DNA of 64,000 bases from Candidatus Gastranaerophilales bacterium (lineage in GTDB: Bacteria; Cyanobacteriota; Vampirovibrionia; Gastranaerophilales; Gastranaerophilaceae): positions 1 through 64,000 of the forward strand of contig CALURU010000013.1 of the NCBI GenBank assembly GCA_944323255.1. Direction: 5' to 3'. The notes under the pieces were generated by a model. The model had not been told where the DNA came from, made no database searches, and saw nothing but the letters and a program-made list of their open reading frames with translations. A program made the translations under genes and the position numbers. Positions 9,077 through 18,220 of this stretch are shown here, piece after piece. How positions within the stretch are numbered: the stretch's first letter is position 1; the number at the start of each line of letters is the position of its first letter.

Positions 9077-10165
9077 TTAGATTAAGTTCAAAGCGATTGA
9101 CGGCATCTGGTTAGCAGTTGCTAACAGAGTTGCTGTTGACTGCTGCAGAATCTGGTATTTTATGTAGTTAGAAGATTCTGTTGCAACGTCTGCGTCTTTG
9201 ATTGTAGAATTAGCTTCTGTTAAGTTTTCTCTCTGAACATCTGTTGATTCAATTGCAGAATCCAATCTATTCATATAAGCACCGATTTTTGTTGATCTTA
9301 AAGAGACGTTATCAATTGCTTTATCTATAAAATCAATAAATTCACGAGCAGAACTGTCATTTCTGTAGATAGCTGCACACATTGCAGTTATTGTAAATTG
9401 ACCGTTTACTGTTGCATCACCGTCTGCGGCTGTAATAACTCCGTTTTCTGCAAGAGCTGCCGCAAGGGCTGATTCATAAGAACCTGTCTGGTATTGTATG
9501 TTACCTGCAGCATCTGTAACAGGAGTTCCGTCTGCTTTCATTTGTCTTGCTCTGTATTCATAAGTATCATCTGCCGTGCTTGAAGTCAGGTTAATATATC
9601 CGCCATTTGTTGTAGAATTAAATCCCATAAGTGAAGTACTTTCCGCACTTGCAAATAAGAATGCATCCAGTTTAATAACGCATCTTTTGTCTGAATACAG
9701 ACCTACCTGCAAATTAATAGGTTCCGTTCTTGAACCGTCAAGTAGGTAAGTATCATTAAAATCTGTAATCTGACATAAACGGTTAATTTCATCCATTCTT
9801 TGAACAACTTCTGTTGCGATAGCATCTAAAGAAGCAGAACCGTAAGTTCCGTTTGCTGCCTGCATGGTTAAGTCTCTGATTCTCTGGAGGTAATCATTGA
9901 TAATGTCTAAGATACCTTCCTGGGTTGTTAACATGTCTAAACCCATTTGAGCGTTAGTTTCAATGATATCATAACCGTTAATTTTGGCTTCCATGCCTGC
10001 GGATACAGCGTATCCTGCTGCGTCATCAGCTGCGGAGTTGATACGGAAGCCGGTAGATAATCTCTCCATTGCTGTGTTCATACCTTTGGTTGCATCTCTA
10101 AGGTAAGTTTGACAGGTTAATGACGCCAAGTTCGTGTTAATTGTGATTGTTGATGTCGCACCCAT
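9077..10165 (-). CDS. fliC: flagellin
   Basis: A 362-residue flagellin. The conserved N-terminal D0/D1 helices are clear (TINTNLASLTCQTYLRDA, MERLSTGFRINSAADDAAGYAVS) and the C-terminal D1/D0 pair ends in NQMPSIALNLI. The variable middle (about 150-270) is short and Thr/Ala/Asp-rich. Filament subunit, exported by the flagellar type III apparatus. No other flagellar gene is in this window, so the rest of the machinery must be elsewhere. Two Cys in conserved parts (SLTCQT, RLCQIT) are unusual for a flagellin. Expression is probably sigma-28 dependent (promoter 10209-10235). The ribosome site is AAAGGAA. Confidence 0.95.
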   Translation of the reverse strand: MGATSTITINTNLASLTCQTYLRDATKGMNTAMERLSTGFRINSAADDAAGYAVSAGMEAKINGYDIIETNAQMGLDMLTTQEGILDIINDYLQRIRDLTMQAANGTYGSASLDAIATEVVQRMDEINRLCQITDFNDTYLLDGSRTEPINLQVGLYSDKRCVIKLDAFLFASAESTSLMGFNSTTNGGYINLTSSTADDTYEYRARQMKADGTPVTDAAGNIQYQTGSYESALAAALAENGVITAADGDATVNGQFTITAMCAAIYRNDSSAREFIDFIDKAIDNVSLRSTKIGAYMNRLDSAIESTDVQRENLTEANSTIKDADVATESSNYIKYQILQQSTATLLATANQMPSIALNLI

Positions 10166-10429: not shown

Positions 10430-11002
10430 ATGAATTTAGATAAATCAAGAACATTGCAGAATTTAGTAAATGCATTTGCGGGCGAATCGCAGGCGAGAAA
10501 CAGGTATACATTTTTTGCAAAGGTTGCAAAACAGGAAGGGTATGAGCAGATAAGTGCTGTTTTTCTAGAGACGGCAGGCAATGAAGAGGAACATGCCAAA
10601 TTATTTTATAAACACATACCAAATGCCAAGCATCTTGGAGTAACAGGTTCTTATCCGTTCTTTTTCGGCAGCACATTTGATAACCTGCTTTCTGCAGCAG
10701 AAGGCGAAAGAGAAGAGTGGGAATCTTTGTATAAAGAATCCGCTTTAATTGCAAAGGATGAAGGTTTTGACGAGATTTCTTTATTGTTTTCCAATATTGT
10801 GGAGATAGAAAAAAGACATGCACATAGATTTGAGTCACTAGCGGGAATACTTAAGGACGATGCTCTGTTTAAGAAGCCTGAAGTTACGCAGTGGGTTTGC
10901 AGAAAATGCGGTCATACCCAGATAGGAAAAGAAGCTCCATGTGTTTGTCCTGTCTGTAAGCACCCGCAGGGGTATTTTGAGCTATTTATTGAGAAATTTT
11001 AA
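10430..11002 (+). CDS. rbr: rubrerythrin
   Basis: A 190-residue rubrerythrin. The N-terminal ferritin-like four-helix domain carries the di-iron ligands (AGESQARNRY, ETAGNEEEHAK, AAEGEREEW, EIEKRHAHRF). The C-terminal rubredoxin-like domain has C157xxC160 and C173xxC176 (WVCRKCGH, CVCPVCKHPQGYFEL). It reduces hydrogen peroxide in anaerobes. An AGGAGG-type site precedes the ATG. The inter-cysteine region contains an extra Cys (C171). An inverted repeat pair (about 10236-10248 and 10331-10343) upstream might be regulatory. It suggests an anaerobic life style. Confidence 0.95.
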   Translation: MNLDKSRTLQNLVNAFAGESQARNRYTFFAKVAKQEGYEQISAVFLETAGNEEEHAKLFYKHIPNAKHLGVTGSYPFFFGSTFDNLLSAAEGEREEWESLYKESALIAKDEGFDEISLLFSNIVEIEKRHAHRFESLAGILKDDALFKKPEVTQWVCRKCGHTQIGKEAPCVCPVCKHPQGYFELFIEKF

Positions 11003-11021
11003 TTATTATATTATTAATATC

Positions 11022-11051
11022 TTGACACATAATAACTGATGGGAGTACACT
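11022..11051 (+). promoter_or_regulatory. possible promoter of the autotransporter gene
   Basis: TTGACA (11022-11027) is a perfect -35 box. TACACT, 18 bases further, is a weak -10. A GGGAGTA...TACTCCC hairpin (11041-11080) overlaps the expected start of transcription, so it may instead belong to the end of the rubrerythrin transcript. Confidence 0.35.
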
Positions 11052-11116
11052 TAACAATATATTATATGATTGGGTACTCCCTTCTTTGAAGGGATGAATT
11101 AAGGGAAAAGGAATTT

Positions 11117-14100
11117 ATGGAAAAGAAGAAGCTTATTACTGCACTAATGGTCGGTTGTATGGTGTTTTTGCCTGCCGGTGCGGCAGAGAGAACAATATCA
11201 GGAGTAATAGAGAATCAGATTGGTACGGGCACTACTCCGGGTGTAGCTACTGTCAATGCCGGTGATACACTTATTATAGATAATGCAACTATACAGAATA
11301 ACTCCGGATACGGCGGAGCTTTTGTAAACCATGGCACTATTCACATTAATGACGGAAAAGAAGGTTCACATACGACTTTTTCAGGAAACAGCAATAACAA
11401 TCCTACGATGGGCGGCGGAGCGATTTACAGTTACGCTTCCGGTACGAACATTTATATCGGAGATTACACTTCCTTTATAGATAATAATAAAGGTGTAAAT
11501 GTACCGGCTGCCGGTGCGGTATATGTGGGGAATGCAACTCAATTAGCAATAGGAGAACACGTAAACTTTTCCGGTAATTCTGCAGGCCAGGGAAATTCAC
11601 CGGGAATTGGCGGCGCTATGTATATTGAAAACAGCGCTACCACAATTGGTCAGGCTATTAATGTAGAAAGCAACACAGCAGCTTCAGGCGGCGGATTGTT
11701 TATATCAAATCCAAACGGCTCTACAGCTACAATCGGAGCCGGAGCTGTATTTACGAAAAATGAGGCATTAACCGGCGACGGTGGTGCTTTAGTAAGTGAT
11801 ATGACAAACCTTACAATAGGTTCAGGGGCTAGATTTGAAGATAATATTGCAGCAGGAAACGGCGGAGCAATTTCTACGGCTCAAACATTTACTTATGAGC
11901 AGGCAGGTAAGGTTACAATAGGAAGCGGTGCTCGATTTACAGACAATGAAGCAGCAGGTAATGGCGGAGCAATCTATAATATTACAGAAGTTGAAATTCA
12001 GGGTGCAACTTTTGAAGGAAATTCTGCAGTTACTGGCGGGGCGATTTACAATACAGCGACTGTTAATGTAAACGGTGCAACTTTTACAGGCAACAAAGCT
12101 AATAAAGGCGGAGCTTTATATAATGCCCAAAATGCAACTGCAACATTGCAGGATGTAACTTTCTCCGCAAAAAGCGGCGACGCCTCAAACAGTATTTATA
12201 ACGCAGGTTCTGTCGTGACTTCATCAAGTGCCGGTAAAACAAATACCTTTAACAGTGATATTTACGGAGACGGAACAATTACAAATACGGGCTCTTCTTC
12301 TTTTGGCGGTGATAATTCCAAATTTGTGGGAACATTTACCCAGCAAGTTGCAGGTGCAGAGACAACAGTTACGGGAACTTTCTTCGGCGGAACTTCTAAG
12401 GTATCAAACGGTACGCTTAACTGGGAAACTCAAACAGGTATTCCGTCGGGCGGAAGCCTAAATATTACCGGCGGGAATTTGAATATCGGAAGTGCCGACG
12501 GTCAAACAACAGGTAAATTTACTGTCGGAGCGAACTCTGTTATCGGAAATGCTGTAAATGTACAAGTTAATAAAAATTCTGTACTTGCGAATGATAATAC
12601 TCTGACTATCGGTCAGGGGCAGGAATTTACTAACGCCGGTAAGGTTGAAGGTTCCGGCAATTTAACGGTTTCAGACGGCAGTAACTCCGGAACTATAGAA
12701 CAGGGTTCTGTAACTATAGCATCAGGTGGAAGTAACGCATTTGAAAATTCAGGATCTATAGAAACAGGTACATTAAAGAATCAGGGTTCTTTGACGACTA
12801 CAACTACCGGTTCAGTTATTGCAGATACAATAACAAATGAAAAAGATGCAACATTTACAAACAATTCTAATAATGTTCAGGCAGGACAGTTTGATAATGC
12901 AGGAAAAGTCAAAGGTGCAGGTTCTTTAAATCTCAGAAGCGGAACTAATACAGGCTCTATAACACAAGAGGCTATTACAATTGCTTCCGGCGGAACTTAC
13001 AACAACGGTTCAGAAACTTCAACAGGAGCAGAAATTAATGTTGATAGCCTTATAATTGACGGAACATTGAACAATTATGGCTCTATCGGAAACGATAAGG
13101 CTGTTACAAGTATTACAAACAACGGTACTTTTGAAAATAAAGGTTCAGGCTCAATTGTTGCAGATACAATAACAAATAATGAAGGAGCAAGCTTTAAAAC
13201 AGAAAATGAAAATGTTGTTGCTGATACATTTAATAACTATGGTAATTATGAAGGTTCAGGCACTACAACAGTAGATATAGATGGTGAAAACAGCAGTTCA
13301 ATTACTGACAAGGTTGTAAATATATCCGGAACCTATGATAACAGAGGTTCAATAACAGCGACAGAAAAATTTAATAATACCGGAACTATTACTGATTCAA
13401 ATACTGCTTCTTCAAATAACAGCAGCATTACAACTGTTGGCGGTTCAAACAGCGGAAGTATTACACAGGATTCCGTAACTATTAAGGTTAAGGGTACTTT
13501 TGAAAATACGGGCTCAATAACGACCGGTAATAATTTTAGCAATAGCGGAACAATTACCGGTAATGGCGGGAGTATTACTATTAATAATTCCGGAACTAAT
13601 ACCGGTTCGATTACCCAGGATGCAATTACAATTGCTTCAGACGGAAGCTTTACTTCCGGTGACGGGGGAACAAATCAAGCTTCTGTAACCGTCAATAATT
13701 TAACAAATAACGGTATTGTAACACTTAATAAGTCTATATTAAGCGTTATAACAGGTCCTGTAACTACAGGTACAATAAATGCAATTAATTCCGGTAACCA
13801 GCTTAGTGCAAATCTAACGGGCGGAACTTTAAACATAGGTAATGGAAGTACTGCAGGTTCTCTCCAGCAAACAGGCGGAAGTGTTGCTGCGAATGCAATT
13901 GTAGATGTTACTGACGGAAGTATTTATGATATTCATGCAGGAAGTGTCACTATAGACAATGGTGACAATTGGGAAGGTAAAATTACTTTAACCGGCGGTT
14001 CTCTGACTACAGATGGATTTACGGAAAAGCATGGCGTTCTGGATGCTGATACTGGTTCATTAAGTATAACAAATGGCAGTGATATTACTGTTGGAAAAGA

Positions 14101-16375
14101 CAGTTCAATAGCTGGAGATGTCACTACAACAATTGACAAAACTTCTACATTAAATATCAATAACGGCGGCAGTGTTGTCTTAAATAGCGGAGATGGCTGG
14201 TCAGGTACAATTGTTCTCGGAACTCACGATTCAGCTGAAACAAACTCAAAACTTGATATAAGCGGTCTTTCCAAAAACGGAACCTTGCAGGCTAACCGCG
14301 GAACATTAAATGTCGGTACCGGAGATTTGAATATCGGAACGGGAAGCTATATCAAGAATGCAGTTAAAATTGAAACAAAAGGTGATATAAATATTTCCGG
14401 TGAAGGTGTTGTCGGAGTCGATGACAATGATACCCTTGATGCTAATTCTGTAATAACATTAAAGGATCAAGGTACATTAAACTACGGAAATACAACTGAT
14501 CCAAACTTTAAGATTGAAGCTGATTCAGGTAACTTAAATCTTCTTGGCGGCTCTAAGCTTACTATTGACGGGAGCAGCTCTATATCAGATGCTGTAGCTC
14601 TTGATATTCAGCAAAATTCGCAGCTTACCCTTGATGCTGCTACATTAAATCTTGATAATGCAGATAAATGGGATGGTAAGATTATAAATGAGCAGGGTAC
14701 AATCAATGCTAACGGATTGATTAATGATTCTCAAACAGCTTCTTTGGAACAAACCGGCGGTGTGTTGAATGTTTATAATGATGCTCAGGTAACACTCGGT
14801 GAAAATAGTTTTATTCAGGCTGGTGTAATAAATATTTATACCGGTGATGATGGTAAAAACGGTTCAACATTTACACTTACAAACGGTTCTGTCACCGGCG
14901 GAGATATGACCATTGATGAAAATTCAGCATTCATCGTTAAAAACGGTACATTCTCATTAAACAGTATCAATGGTAAAGGTGTTGTTGATCAGGACGGAAT
15001 AATGCACGCATCACTGGTTGATGTTGCAAACGGTCAGAGAGTTCAGCACAATATTAAAGAACTTGCAATAAACGGTCAAACTAATTTCAACATGGATATT
15101 CACGCACGCGGAAATCATTACACAAGCAACGATCAGTTTGTTGTCAAAAACCTGACCGGTAATGGTACCGCAAGAATTGATAACTGGAGCTTAAACGGAG
15201 ATATCTTCGGTTGGGATGCTCCGATTGACAGACATATTGTTTTAGATCATATATTCGTTGACGAAAACGGAAATCCGCTTCAAGGTAATATTGAAATTAC
15301 CAGAAAAACCGAATTCACTCCAATCGGTTATTATCAGCTTAATCAGAAAGGAAGCGGAACCGGCTTACACTACACTCTTGACCTTGTAGACTTTAACCCG
15401 CAAGTATTCAGAGGTCAGGTTGCAACTGTTGCACAATGGATGAACCAGTTAGCAATTGATGATATGTTATTCACTCATTCAATGGTTCTTCCAAGCTTCA
15501 AAGATGAGGACGGCGGAATTGCATATTCAGGAATGATGGCAAACAGATACGCATCATCAAATCCGCTCTTTGCACCGTATCAATATTCCCGTAAAGACGG
15601 CGGTCTCTGGTACAAAATGTACGGAACATTTGAAAATCTGAATATGAACGTAAGCGGCCTCGGAAGAGTAGGAAACAATGCTTACGGCGCATTAATCGGT
15701 GCTGACTTCGGATTAAAAGAACTGAAAAATGGCTGGAAATTCATGCCGACAGCTTACGTAGGTTATAATGGTGCTCACCAGGCTTACCCGGGAATTGGTG
15801 CATACCAGAACGGCGGTCAGGCAGGTTTCTTAGGAACTTGGTATAAAAATAACTTTATCTTAGGCGGTTTGGTATACGGCGGTGTCTATGAAAACAGCAT
15901 GGACGTTGGCGGACATACTGATAATGCATTCAACTACTTTGCTGGTGCTGCAACAAAATTCGCTTACAACTGGAGATTCCACAGAGACTGGGTATTACAG
16001 CCTAACTTAATGGCTGCATACAACTTCTTTGGTCAGCAAAACTGGCATTCAGACTATGGTCAGATGGGCATGATGGCAGGAATGCTGAACGGTGTTAACC
16101 TTGCTCCTGGTGTAAACTTAATCTGGGAAAAAGAAACTTTCAGCATCTACGGTACATTACAGTATATGTATAACTTAAATGGTGCTGTAGGCGGTCGTGC
16201 AGGAAACGTCGGTCTTCCACAGGTTGAAATGGAAAGAGGCTACATTCAGTACGGTCTTGGTTTCACGAAGAAATGGGGCGACAGATTCTCCGGATATCTA
16301 CAAGCTGTTCTTAGAAATGCAGGCAGAACCGGTGTAGGCTTCCAGCTCGGATTTAATTTCCTTCTCGGAAAATAG
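11117..16375 (+). CDS. autotransporter adhesin with chlamydial Pmp-like GGA/FxxN repeats
   Basis: A 1752-residue type V secretion protein. A signal peptide (1-23; cleavage near PAGAA) is followed by a Gly/Asn-rich beta-helical passenger. Residues about 60-350 hold some eight paired motifs FxxN and GGA[ILMF] (FEDN...GGAIST, FTDN...GGAIYN, FTGN...GGALYN), the hallmark of Chlamydia polymorphic membrane proteins. Residues about 500-900 hold N-rich repeats with SGSIT-Q-[DE]-[AS]-[IV]-TI units. The last 270 residues (from about 1480, GGLWYKMYGTFENL...) are an autotransporter beta-barrel. It ends FNFLLGK, not in an aromatic residue. Probable surface adhesin or display protein. RBS is AAGGAA; a terminator follows. 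Confidence 0.9.
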   Translation: MEKKKLITALMVGCMVFLPAGAAERTISGVIENQIGTGTTPGVATVNAGDTLIIDNATIQNNSGYGGAFVNHGTIHINDGKEGSHTTFSGNSNNNPTMGGGAIYSYASGTNIYIGDYTSFIDNNKGVNVPAAGAVYVGNATQLAIGEHVNFSGNSAGQGNSPGIGGAMYIENSATTIGQAINVESNTAASGGGLFISNPNGSTATIGAGAVFTKNEALTGDGGALVSDMTNLTIGSGARFEDNIAAGNGGAISTAQTFTYEQAGKVTIGSGARFTDNEAAGNGGAIYNITEVEIQGATFEGNSAVTGGAIYNTATVNVNGATFTGNKANKGGALYNAQNATATLQDVTFSAKSGDASNSIYNAGSVVTSSSAGKTNTFNSDIYGDGTITNTGSSSFGGDNSKFVGTFTQQVAGAETTVTGTFFGGTSKVSNGTLNWETQTGIPSGGSLNITGGNLNIGSADGQTTGKFTVGANSVIGNAVNVQVNKNSVLANDNTLTIGQGQEFTNAGKVEGSGNLTVSDGSNSGTIEQGSVTIASGGSNAFENSGSIETGTLKNQGSLTTTTTGSVIADTITNEKDATFTNNSNNVQAGQFDNAGKVKGAGSLNLRSGTNTGSITQEAITIASGGTYNNGSETSTGAEINVDSLIIDGTLNNYGSIGNDKAVTSITNNGTFENKGSGSIVADTITNNEGASFKTENENVVADTFNNYGNYEGSGTTTVDIDGENSSSITDKVVNISGTYDNRGSITATEKFNNTGTITDSNTASSNNSSITTVGGSNSGSITQDSVTIKVKGTFENTGSITTGNNFSNSGTITGNGGSITINNSGTNTGSITQDAITIASDGSFTSGDGGTNQASVTVNNLTNNGIVTLNKSILSVITGPVTTGTINAINSGNQLSANLTGGTLNIGNGSTAGSLQQTGGSVAANAIVDVTDGSIYDIHAGSVTIDNGDNWEGKITLTGGSLTTDGFTEKHGVLDADTGSLSITNGSDITVGKDSSIAGDVTTTIDKTSTLNINNGGSVVLNSGDGWSGTIVLGTHDSAETNSKLDISGLSKNGTLQANRGTLNVGTGDLNIGTGSYIKNAVKIETKGDINISGEGVVGVDDNDTLDANSVITLKDQGTLNYGNTTDPNFKIEADSGNLNLLGGSKLTIDGSSSISDAVALDIQQNSQLTLDAATLNLDNADKWDGKIINEQGTINANGLINDSQTASLEQTGGVLNVYNDAQVTLGENSFIQAGVINIYTGDDGKNGSTFTLTNGSVTGGDMTIDENSAFIVKNGTFSLNSINGKGVVDQDGIMHASLVDVANGQRVQHNIKELAINGQTNFNMDIHARGNHYTSNDQFVVKNLTGNGTARIDNWSLNGDIFGWDAPIDRHIVLDHIFVDENGNPLQGNIEITRKTEFTPIGYYQLNQKGSGTGLHYTLDLVDFNPQVFRGQVATVAQWMNQLAIDDMLFTHSMVLPSFKDEDGGIAYSGMMANRYASSNPLFAPYQYSRKDGGLWYKMYGTFENLNMNVSGLGRVGNNAYGALIGADFGLKELKNGWKFMPTAYVGYNGAHQAYPGIGAYQNGGQAGFLGTWYKNNFILGGLVYGGVYENSMDVGGHTDNAFNYFAGAATKFAYNWRFHRDWVLQPNLMAAYNFFGQQNWHSDYGQMGMMAGMLNGVNLAPGVNLIWEKETFSIYGTLQYMYNLNGAVGGRAGNVGLPQVEMERGYIQYGLGFTKKWGDRFSGYLQAVLRNAGRTGVGFQLGFNFLLGK

Positions 16376-16388
16376 AATTTATTTAATA

Positions 16389-16419
16389 AAGGGCGGCGAT
16401 TGAAAATCGCCGCCCTTTA
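16389..16419. terminator. terminator after the autotransporter gene
   Basis: AAGGGCGGCGATT pairs with AATCGCCGCCCTT around a short GAA(A) loop and is followed by TTTATTTC. It is symmetrical enough to serve the convergent gene too. Confidence 0.85.
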
Positions 16420-16422
16420 TTT

Positions 16423-16749
16423 CTAAATTAAAATATCTTGTTTTAACTGTTTCTTTGCATCCTTGATGCTTATTTTTTGTGGTTTTTTATTCATAAATTT
16501 TGTTGGATTTGTTCTTATTTCCCAAAAGCACGGATTTTTTTGAGAAATATCTATCAGTTTATCAAAATCTTTTCCGCTGAAAATGTATAAATAAGATTTA
16601 TGTCTGTTTTTGCGGGTAATAATAGAGATAAAATCATCAGACGGGTATTCTTTGAGTTCTTGCTTAAATTCTTTGATTTTGTGACGATGACCTTTGACTC
16701 TGATAAATTTACCAAAATTCGGGGTATTTGTTTGAAGATTTACTTGCAT
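16423..16749 (-). CDS. small hypothetical protein with M-x-V-N...N-F-G start
   Basis: This 108-residue basic protein is unknown to me. It opens MQVNLQTNTPNFGKFIRVKG, sharing the N-terminal pattern M-x-[IV]-N...N...F with the proteins at 307, 23260 and 27118. The rest is Lys-rich with a predicted alpha/beta mix (HKIKEFKQELKEYPSDDFIS, SYLYIFSGKDFDKLIDIS). No signal peptide or membrane segment. It has a modest ribosome site (AAAGGAAT). It lies 19 bases downstream of the TPR gene, perhaps cotranscribed. Confidence 0.7.
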   Translation of the reverse strand: MQVNLQTNTPNFGKFIRVKGHRHKIKEFKQELKEYPSDDFISIITRKNRHKSYLYIFSGKDFDKLIDISQKNPCFWEIRTNPTKFMNKKPQKISIKDAKKQLKQDILI

Positions 16750-16768
16750 TTTTATTCCTTTATTTTAT

Positions 16769-18220
16769 TTAGCCGCTAATTAAGGATAGGCAATTTGAGT
16801 CATTGAATGCCTGTAATGACGGATTTATTTGTATAGCGGTAGAGTAATCTTTTCTGAAGCCTTCAGTGTCGCCCAGTTCTTTTCTTATTGCAGCACGATA
16901 GAAATAAGCATCAGCATACTTGGAATTATTTTCTATAGCTTTATTCAAATCTGAAATTGCCCCCTGCAAATCTCTAAGCACACATTTTTGAAGCCCTCTT
17001 ATGTAATAGCTTTCCGCAAGTTTGATATTTGTTGTCGGGTTCTTTTTAATTGCCGTTGTTGTGATTACCGGAGCATTAGGAGCTTGTACAGTCGCAACGC
17101 CAGCGCTTATAGTATTTGCAGCAAGTTTCGGCTCTTCAGTCTGCTTAGGTGTAACGATTGTTGTTACTTTTGCCTGTTGTTGAACCGGCTGTTTTGCAAT
17201 TACTGGTTCTTTCTTTGGAGCAGGATTGTATGCTATCTGCGGTTTGATTTCCTGTTGTTTTGCAACCGGTTTTATTTCTTCCCTTAATTCCGGTTTTTTT
17301 TCTACCTGCTGCGTAACTTGTTTTACAGGATTTTTAATCTCTGCACTTGCGACCTGAACTGTTTCTGATTTTGCAGCCGGCGCAGTCTGGGTAAATTCAG
17401 GAACAACCCCTCTAACGGTAGGAATTGCTGCTATGTAGCTTTCATTAGACAATAGCGGTTTTACATTCTTGATAAATGTTTGTGTTTCTGCAAGCGCAAT
17501 TGCCTGATCCAAATCTATTGCTGCACCTTCGTTATCAAAATAAAGTTTTTTCAAACGACCTCTGTTTGCATATGCAATACTGTCTTTCGGGTTTAGTGCA
17601 ATTGCCTGTGTATAATCGCTCAGCGCACCTACGTTAAAATTCATTCTCTTTTTAACAACACCTCTGTTGTTAAAAGCTTCGGCGTCTTTAGGATTTAGCT
17701 CAATTGCGATATTGTAATCTTCCAGTGCACCTTTGTTATCATCAAGCATATATTTTAAATTCGCACGGTTGTAATAAACGTCAGAATAATTTTTGTTAAT
17801 AGAAATTGCCTTGGCATAATCTTCCATAGCACCTTCTATATCATTGAGTGCAACTTTTAAAACGCCTCTGTTATTATATGCGTATGCAAAGTTTTTATTA
17901 ATTGCAATCGCCTTGTTATAGTCTGCCATTGCGCCATTAAGATCATTGACGAGCTGTTTTATATATCCTCTGTTTAAGTACAGTTCCGGATTATTAGGAC
18001 TAAGTTCAATTGCCTTATCAAAATCCTGAATAGCCCCCTGTATATCCTGCTTCAAAAACTTCATAGAAGCCCTGTTAGAGTATGCCAGAGATGCATTCGG
18101 GTTCTCCTGAATTTGTCTTGAGTAGCTTTCTATAGATTTATCGATAGGAGTTTCAGCAAAAGCAGAACTGTTAATGCTTAACAGTACTATTGCTGCAAGT
18201 ATCAAACCAATTTTTTTCAC
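16769..18220 (-). CDS. exported tetratricopeptide-repeat protein
   Basis: A 483-residue TPR protein. It has a signal peptide (1-22, AFA-E cleavage), then seven or so consecutive TPR units (about 30-245; AYNNRGVLKVALNDIEGAMEDY type), a Pro/Gln/Lys-rich disordered linker (about 275-385), and one or two further TPR units (about 395-470). The start is GTG with AAGGAGT 7 bases upstream; no ATG is nearby. Such proteins act as periplasmic or outer-membrane scaffolds. The linker could span peptidoglycan. Partners are unknown. Confidence 0.88.
   Translation of the reverse strand: MKKIGLILAAIVLLSINSSAFAETPIDKSIESYSRQIQENPNASLAYSNRASMKFLKQDIQGAIQDFDKAIELSPNNPELYLNRGYIKQLVNDLNGAMADYNKAIAINKNFAYAYNNRGVLKVALNDIEGAMEDYAKAISINKNYSDVYYNRANLKYMLDDNKGALEDYNIAIELNPKDAEAFNNRGVVKKRMNFNVGALSDYTQAIALNPKDSIAYANRGRLKKLYFDNEGAAIDLDQAIALAETQTFIKNVKPLLSNESYIAAIPTVRGVVPEFTQTAPAAKSETVQVASAEIKNPVKQVTQQVEKKPELREEIKPVAKQQEIKPQIAYNPAPKKEPVIAKQPVQQQAKVTTIVTPKQTEEPKLAANTISAGVATVQAPNAPVITTTAIKKNPTTNIKLAESYYIRGLQKCVLRDLQGAISDLNKAIENNSKYADAYFYRAAIRKELGDTEGFRKDYSTAIQINPSLQAFNDSNCLSLISG

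Follow-up and report, generated by a model that had tools for sequence, protein, structure and literature searches.

The 64,000-nucleotide stretch of DNA analyzed here (the window) comes from a 2.2-Mb genome that is 98% complete, and it encodes a protein that we judge, with a probability of about 0.75, to be a type Va autotransporter of gut Gastranaerophilales that bears a Pmp-type beta-helix at its tip, most likely serves as an adhesin, and has a head diversified by recombination while its barrel is kept constant. The gene is a single intact frame of 1,752 amino acids on the forward strand (positions 11117 to 16375). Most of its nearest matches among named records are metagenome genomes titled "Candidatus Gastranaerophilales," with an "uncultured bacterium" nearest of all, in agreement with the initial annotation, which had assigned the protein to a cyanobacterial relative; the lineage is a non-photosynthetic one.

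Residues 60 to 345 contain nine FxxN and eight GGA[ILMF] motifs, bearing out the earlier claim of about eight of each alternating in the N-terminal part. Between residues 25 and 400, nine FxxN motifs, eight GGA[ILVMFY] motifs, and 14 alternations between the two types were counted; 20,000 shuffles of the same residues averaged 1.7, 0.3, and 0.3, respectively, and never reached any of these counts. The FISN at residue 195 is off-register; the other eight FxxN motifs are aligned with a subsequent GGA or a close variant. As a control, eight full-length passengers joined to this type of barrel contained no GGA[ILVMFY] at all. With the variant pairs included (IQNN/GGAF at residues 59/66, FIDN/AGAV at 120/132, and VESN/GGGL at 183/191), a count by eye gives about ten predicted beta-helix rungs, each pairing FxxN or a variant with GGA[ILMF] or a variant, in a Pmp-like repeat region that spans residues 59 to 345 (positions 11291 to 12151, forward strand). 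A search with profile models, as the initial annotation had proposed, found the repeat above threshold: NCBIfam TIGR01376 (POMP_repeat) scored 23.8 bits on the window protein, where the cut-off is 15. The Pfam model Chlam_PMP (PF02415) scored 19.1 bits on the N-terminal fragment, just below its cut-off of 20.6, and a whole-protein Pfam scan at E values up to 1 returned no match of any kind, Chlam_PMP included. Of 13 N-termini taken from homologs, 12 matched this model (best E value, 7.6e-20), and the syntenic ortholog L005 cleared the cut-off at 22.9 bits.

A second, degenerate repeat of the GSIT type occupies residues ~500 to 870 (positions 12614 to 13726, forward strand, as delimited by motif positions), with units near residues 524, 613, 726, 744, 780, 799, 818, and 830. 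The initial annotation had described this repeat as SGSIT-Q-[DE] and as filling the center of the protein; GSIT-type units do recur there, but the literal SGSIT occurs once and the units do not extend over the whole center. A tandem-repeat search at the DNA level found no array, no homopolymer tract of 7 or more nucleotides of the kind seen in phase-variable genes is present in positions 10900 to 16400, and a sequence search of solved structures with the window protein gave no match.

The first 838 residues of the mature protein were modeled by AlphaFold as one continuous all-beta helix (pLDDT, 91.6; pTM, 0.81), so that the structure prediction suggested in the initial annotation returned a beta-helical and not some other passenger fold. 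In the remaining passenger, residues 346 to 1392 (positions 12152 to 15292, forward strand), a beta-helix was modeled in residues 346 to 860 and from residue 1221 onward. In eight modeled rungs, the F of FxxN lies in a strand, the xxN forms the turn, a short strand follows, and GGA[ILM] stands directly before the next strand. This placement was read from the secondary structure of the model, and the FxxN and GGA motifs are presumably buried. In chlamydial Pmps, the motifs are described as lying in the interior of the rungs, with variable loops protruding between them (PMC10715098), and the motif placement in the window protein is the arrangement described there. Relative to the window protein, 12 homologs carry 49 insertions over the 68 positions of the FxxN-to-GGA loops and 37 over 217 core positions, an approximately 4-fold-higher density in the loops, and identity to these homologs is 38% in the FxxN-GGA loops and 52% elsewhere. 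When the passenger was compared with solved structures by VIA-align, pertactin was the best match (Z, 24.5; rmsd, 4.4; 409 residues); Foldseek alone gave no match with an E value under 0.001. Proteins with a generic beta-helix head the list of structures that resemble the passenger, and some of them are enzymes, for example a PL6 alginate lyase, so that the fold alone does not indicate an adhesin; Ag43 and pertactin are also in the list. The Pfam scan recognized no catalytic domain in the protein.

Residues 1 to 22, MEKKKLITALMVGCMVFLPAGA (positions 11117 to 11182, forward strand), read as a Sec signal peptide, with a basic n-region, a hydrophobic core, and an A-x-A end as judged by eye. The AlphaFold model of the C-terminal 532 residues (pLDDT, 83) starts in the last part of the beta-helix, continues through a helix of 29 residues and a linker predicted with low confidence, and finishes with 12 long strands. 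The helix, residues 1428 to 1456 (positions 15398 to 15484, forward strand; residues 208 to 236 of the model), is expected to plug the pore of the barrel, and the strands, residues 1496 to 1749 (positions 15602 to 16363, forward strand), are predicted from the model and from fold comparison to form a 12-strand outer membrane translocator barrel. The closest folds are the translocators of NalP (Z, 31.5; rmsd, 1.8; 268 residues), AIDA-I (Z, 30.2), and EspP (Z, 30.1), with rmsd values of about 2 over 268 to 286 residues in alignments that extend over the 29-residue helix. By its predicted fold, the window protein is thus a type Va autotransporter, having a 12-strand barrel, a pore helix, and a beta-helix passenger in common with these proteins and with the passengers of pertactin and Ag43, and the C-terminal autotransporter barrel named in the initial annotation is present even though Pfam is blind to it. 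In contrast to this agreement in fold, sequence identity to NalP, AIDA-I, and EspP is 11 to 16%, the NCBIfam autotransporter barrel models did not detect the barrel, and PF03797 found no match in the window protein, in 28 family members, or in the genome. The C-terminus is ...GFNFLLGK, and LGK or IGK is the usual ending among the orthologs; because PF03797 fails and the last residue is Lys and not Phe, recognition by the assembly machinery would have to be argued from the fold alone. The genome does contain a BamA-family gene (PF01103; E value, 2.8e-42), and Gastranaerophilales are diderm with an LPS-type envelope as judged by gene content (PMC4040986), which fits the assignment to type Va.

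Chlamydial Pmps such as PmpD and PmpE likewise combine N-terminal beta-helix rungs built of FxxN and GGA[ILV] with a C-terminal autotransporter barrel, and they resemble the window family in being multigene and highly variable between species. They differ in ending in Phe and matching PF03797. In the window protein, moreover, a second long beta-helix, made of a different type of repeat, comes after the roughly ten rungs, and the repeat module is optional at its locus. In chlamydial Pmps, a conserved Asp at rung 0 caps the Asn ladder. The Pmp middle domain (ChlamPMP_M) had no Pfam match in the whole protein at E values up to 1, in 13 N-terminal fragments of the family, or in 28 C-terminal ones. 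With the middle domain, the PF03797 barrel, and the terminal Phe all failing, the window protein is not a true Pmp; the Pmp-adhesin pattern claimed in the initial annotation holds for the repeats, the beta-helix, and the barrel fold and does not extend to membership in the Pmp family.

The barrel defines a family of its own. Three further proteins with the same barrel are encoded in the window genome, on contigs C10, C36, and C2; all four barrel proteins have POMP-type repeats, and the POMP-repeat matches of the genome, among the matches listed, all lie within these four. Of the 192 genomes sampled from the order, which record titles identify as Gastranaerophilales, 148 contain the family, representing 32 of 45 genera, and the barrel is 53 to 98% identical across 28 loci of named records. 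Among the matches listed for a sample of the class, all but one (genome G290, of the same class) are in the same taxonomic family as the window, and of 244 genomes sampled across the phylum, the 91 that matched all belong to the window's family or order. The barrel family is an order-level trait that is scarcely found outside Gastranaerophilales. A genus sample of 58 genomes had the barrel in 39 and POMP repeats in 26. The survey of related genomes called for in the initial annotation thus revealed a barrel that is widespread in the order and passengers that vary strongly. Several further sequences are of note. The paralogs on C36 (L034, 5182 to 8580) and C2 (L035, 4794 to 8803) are 94 to 99% identical in their 5' DNA and 96% identical in barrel DNA; both lie near contig ends, where the assembly may be interrupted as a result of recent duplication or of gene conversion. 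The model for the passenger-associated transport repeat (PATR) scores 21.2 bits on the paralog on C10 (L033), short of its cut-off of 27. In sibling genomes, L064 and L065 are POMP-rich frames of more than 3,200 amino acids with 33 and 23 GGA[ILVMFY] motifs in the parts covered; their apparent lack of a barrel is uninformative because both frames run past the stretch covered.

The position of the gene is also conserved. A rubrerythrin-like gene (positions 10430 to 11002, forward strand) and a flagellin-like gene (positions 9077 to 10165, reverse strand), both named from reading the sequence, serve as markers of the locus. In 16 loci of other genomes, which form the syntenic set, the autotransporter lies immediately 3' of the rubrerythrin-like gene (65 to 94% identical); the flagellin-like gene is present in 15 of them, the record of L006 ending short of its position. 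No counterparts of the next two genes on the downstream side (positions 16423 to 18220) were found in the 28 related loci, including the one that is 98% identical; the upstream side is syntenic, and many of these loci end early. Pmp repeats were found in the passengers of 10 of the 16 syntenic loci (L005, L006, L009, L012, L014, L018, L020, L021, L031, and L032, the last two with similar motif positions and possibly near-copies) and were not found in the other six (L007, L008, L013, L024, L025, and L030, whose barrel is truncated where the contig stops). The passengers of L007, L008, L024, and L025 are filled by GSIT-related units. Syntenic barrels are 74 to 98% identical to that of the window, whereas the first 60 residues of the Pmp-type passengers are only 18 to 56% identical, and complete frames range from 836 to 2,526 amino acids. 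On a barrel tree that also takes in nonsyntenic loci and has many weakly supported branches, the Pmp label requires six changes over 24 labeled rows, at least three of which follow from branches with good support; grouping of the Pmp rows in one clade is rejected. The Pmp module thus appears, as judged from these sequences, to be optional or exchangeable at a fixed locus at which the barrel stays constant.

Patterns within the passenger point to recombination. Codons for the same residue differ between the window and L005, its closest ortholog, at 35 to 65% up to about residue 333 and at 0 to 38% beyond it, and none of 5,000 permutations clustered synonymous differences as strongly along the passenger; in the comparison with L006, blocks of low synonymous difference at residues 132 to 172 and 274 to 344 are set within a high background. 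Recombination is the best reading of such clustering because protein-level selection alone is not expected to vary synonymous differences so sharply. L005 additionally lacks about 490 central residues of the window protein. The 114-nucleotide gap before the gene is 99% and 96% identical to the window in L005 and L006, respectively, compared with 88% and 86% for the rubrerythrin-like neighbor, and the DNA of the signal peptide is 86% and 82% identical, followed by an immediate drop to 55 to 60% (55% over the 300 nucleotides after the signal peptide in L005). Where the locus carries a non-Pmp allele, the upstream sequence is unlike that of the window, and in L007 and L008 the signal peptide differs as well, which suggests that the exchanged unit may begin upstream of the gene. 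The upstream region includes a promoter-like TTGACA-18-TACACT (positions 11022 to 11051, forward strand; 10 of 12 consensus matches), although promoter-like sites show no excess over shuffles across the region, and an inverted repeat, GGGAGTAC-N25-GTACTCCC (positions 11041 to 11081, forward strand), that overlaps the -10-like box. The inverted repeat has one match in the window with 0 expected by shuffling, is kept in the two closest orthologs (L005 and L006), and may be an operator. Rfam gave no match in the upstream region, and the hairpin predicted there is no more stable than those of shuffled sequences.

Head exchange has to be weighed against an alternative in which paralogous loci homogenize their barrels and the passengers diverge by vertical descent, an explanation that we regard as somewhat unlikely. 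It gains from one genome with two barrels 80% identical to that of the window, of which L010 has Pmp repeats and L013 does not, and from the 96% DNA identity of the C36 and C2 barrels; it would not account for the joint change of signal peptide, upstream region, and passenger at a given locus, nor for the alternation of low and high synonymous blocks inside the passenger itself. Both processes may be at work. A broader proposal, which we entertain tentatively, is a cassette system in which the fixed flagellin-rubrerythrin locus and the lineage-specific barrel form a socket, and Pmp or non-Pmp heads are recombined with their own promoter and signal peptide.

Acquisition of a true chlamydial Pmp by horizontal transfer would explain the matches to POMP_repeat and Chlam_PMP, but it is highly improbable given that neither the Pmp middle domain nor a PF03797 barrel was found, that only the short repeat is common to both proteins, and that the barrel family, distributed as it is over the order, is joined to Pmp-type and non-Pmp passengers alike. 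It is also unlikely, though less so, that the Pmp-type helix is a mere stalk or surface coat with no specific ligand, acting in shielding from phage or immunity or in Ag43-like self-aggregation. Pmp-type repeats are found in many unrelated proteins and lineages (PMC10715098), the module can be missing at the same locus while the rest persists and is thus not essential, and the proteins of matching fold include Ag43 and pertactin, all of which would suit such a role; the gathering of insertions in the FxxN-GGA loops, as if selected for variation, argues weakly against it, since unconstrained loops would look alike.

If the protein is instead an adhesin with a Pmp-type tip, as we favor, the signal peptide would direct it through Sec, and the C-terminal barrel with its pore helix would insert with the help of BamA and bring the long beta-helical passenger outside for display at the surface. 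The outer tip would be the helix of about ten Pmp-type rungs, in which a buried pair of FxxN and GGA[ILM] lies at the base of each loop; these loops, rather than the motifs, would be the likely ligand-binding surface. By analogy with Pmps and other autotransporter adhesins, attachment to the host or to bacteria is plausible, with host mucosa, mucus, or neighboring microbes as possible targets. The head would be varied by recombination at the fixed locus and the barrel held constant.

PF02415 has been recorded in over 100 species, and Pmp-like repeats are described in Phycisphaerae, Methanobrevibacter, and Trichomonas in the available parts of two reports (PMC10715098 and PMC6701047), so the repeat itself is not new. 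The Pmp-like proteins outside Chlamydia share with the window protein the same tetrapeptide pairing in predicted beta-helices; unlike the window family, they have no tie to a conserved lineage-specific barrel described in those parts, and the trichomonad proteins, as presented there, lack the autotransporter domain that the window protein has. What is new is a lineage-wide barrel invisible to domain models and an optional Pmp head at a fixed locus. A literature search, which has little bearing on subscription journals, found no paper linking Gastranaerophilales with an autotransporter and no Melainabacteria counterpart.

Gastranaerophilales dwell in animal guts, and no description of their attachment was found in the papers retrieved; the barrel proteins provide a concrete family of surface proteins for study in this order, one whose barrel is overlooked by standard domain models. 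With a single anchor that bears a Pmp-type head in some genomes and not in others, the family also allows the function of the Pmp repeat to be studied in organisms other than Chlamydia. Should the cassette proposal be true, swaps of the head would alter what the bacterium binds or how it appears to host immunity.
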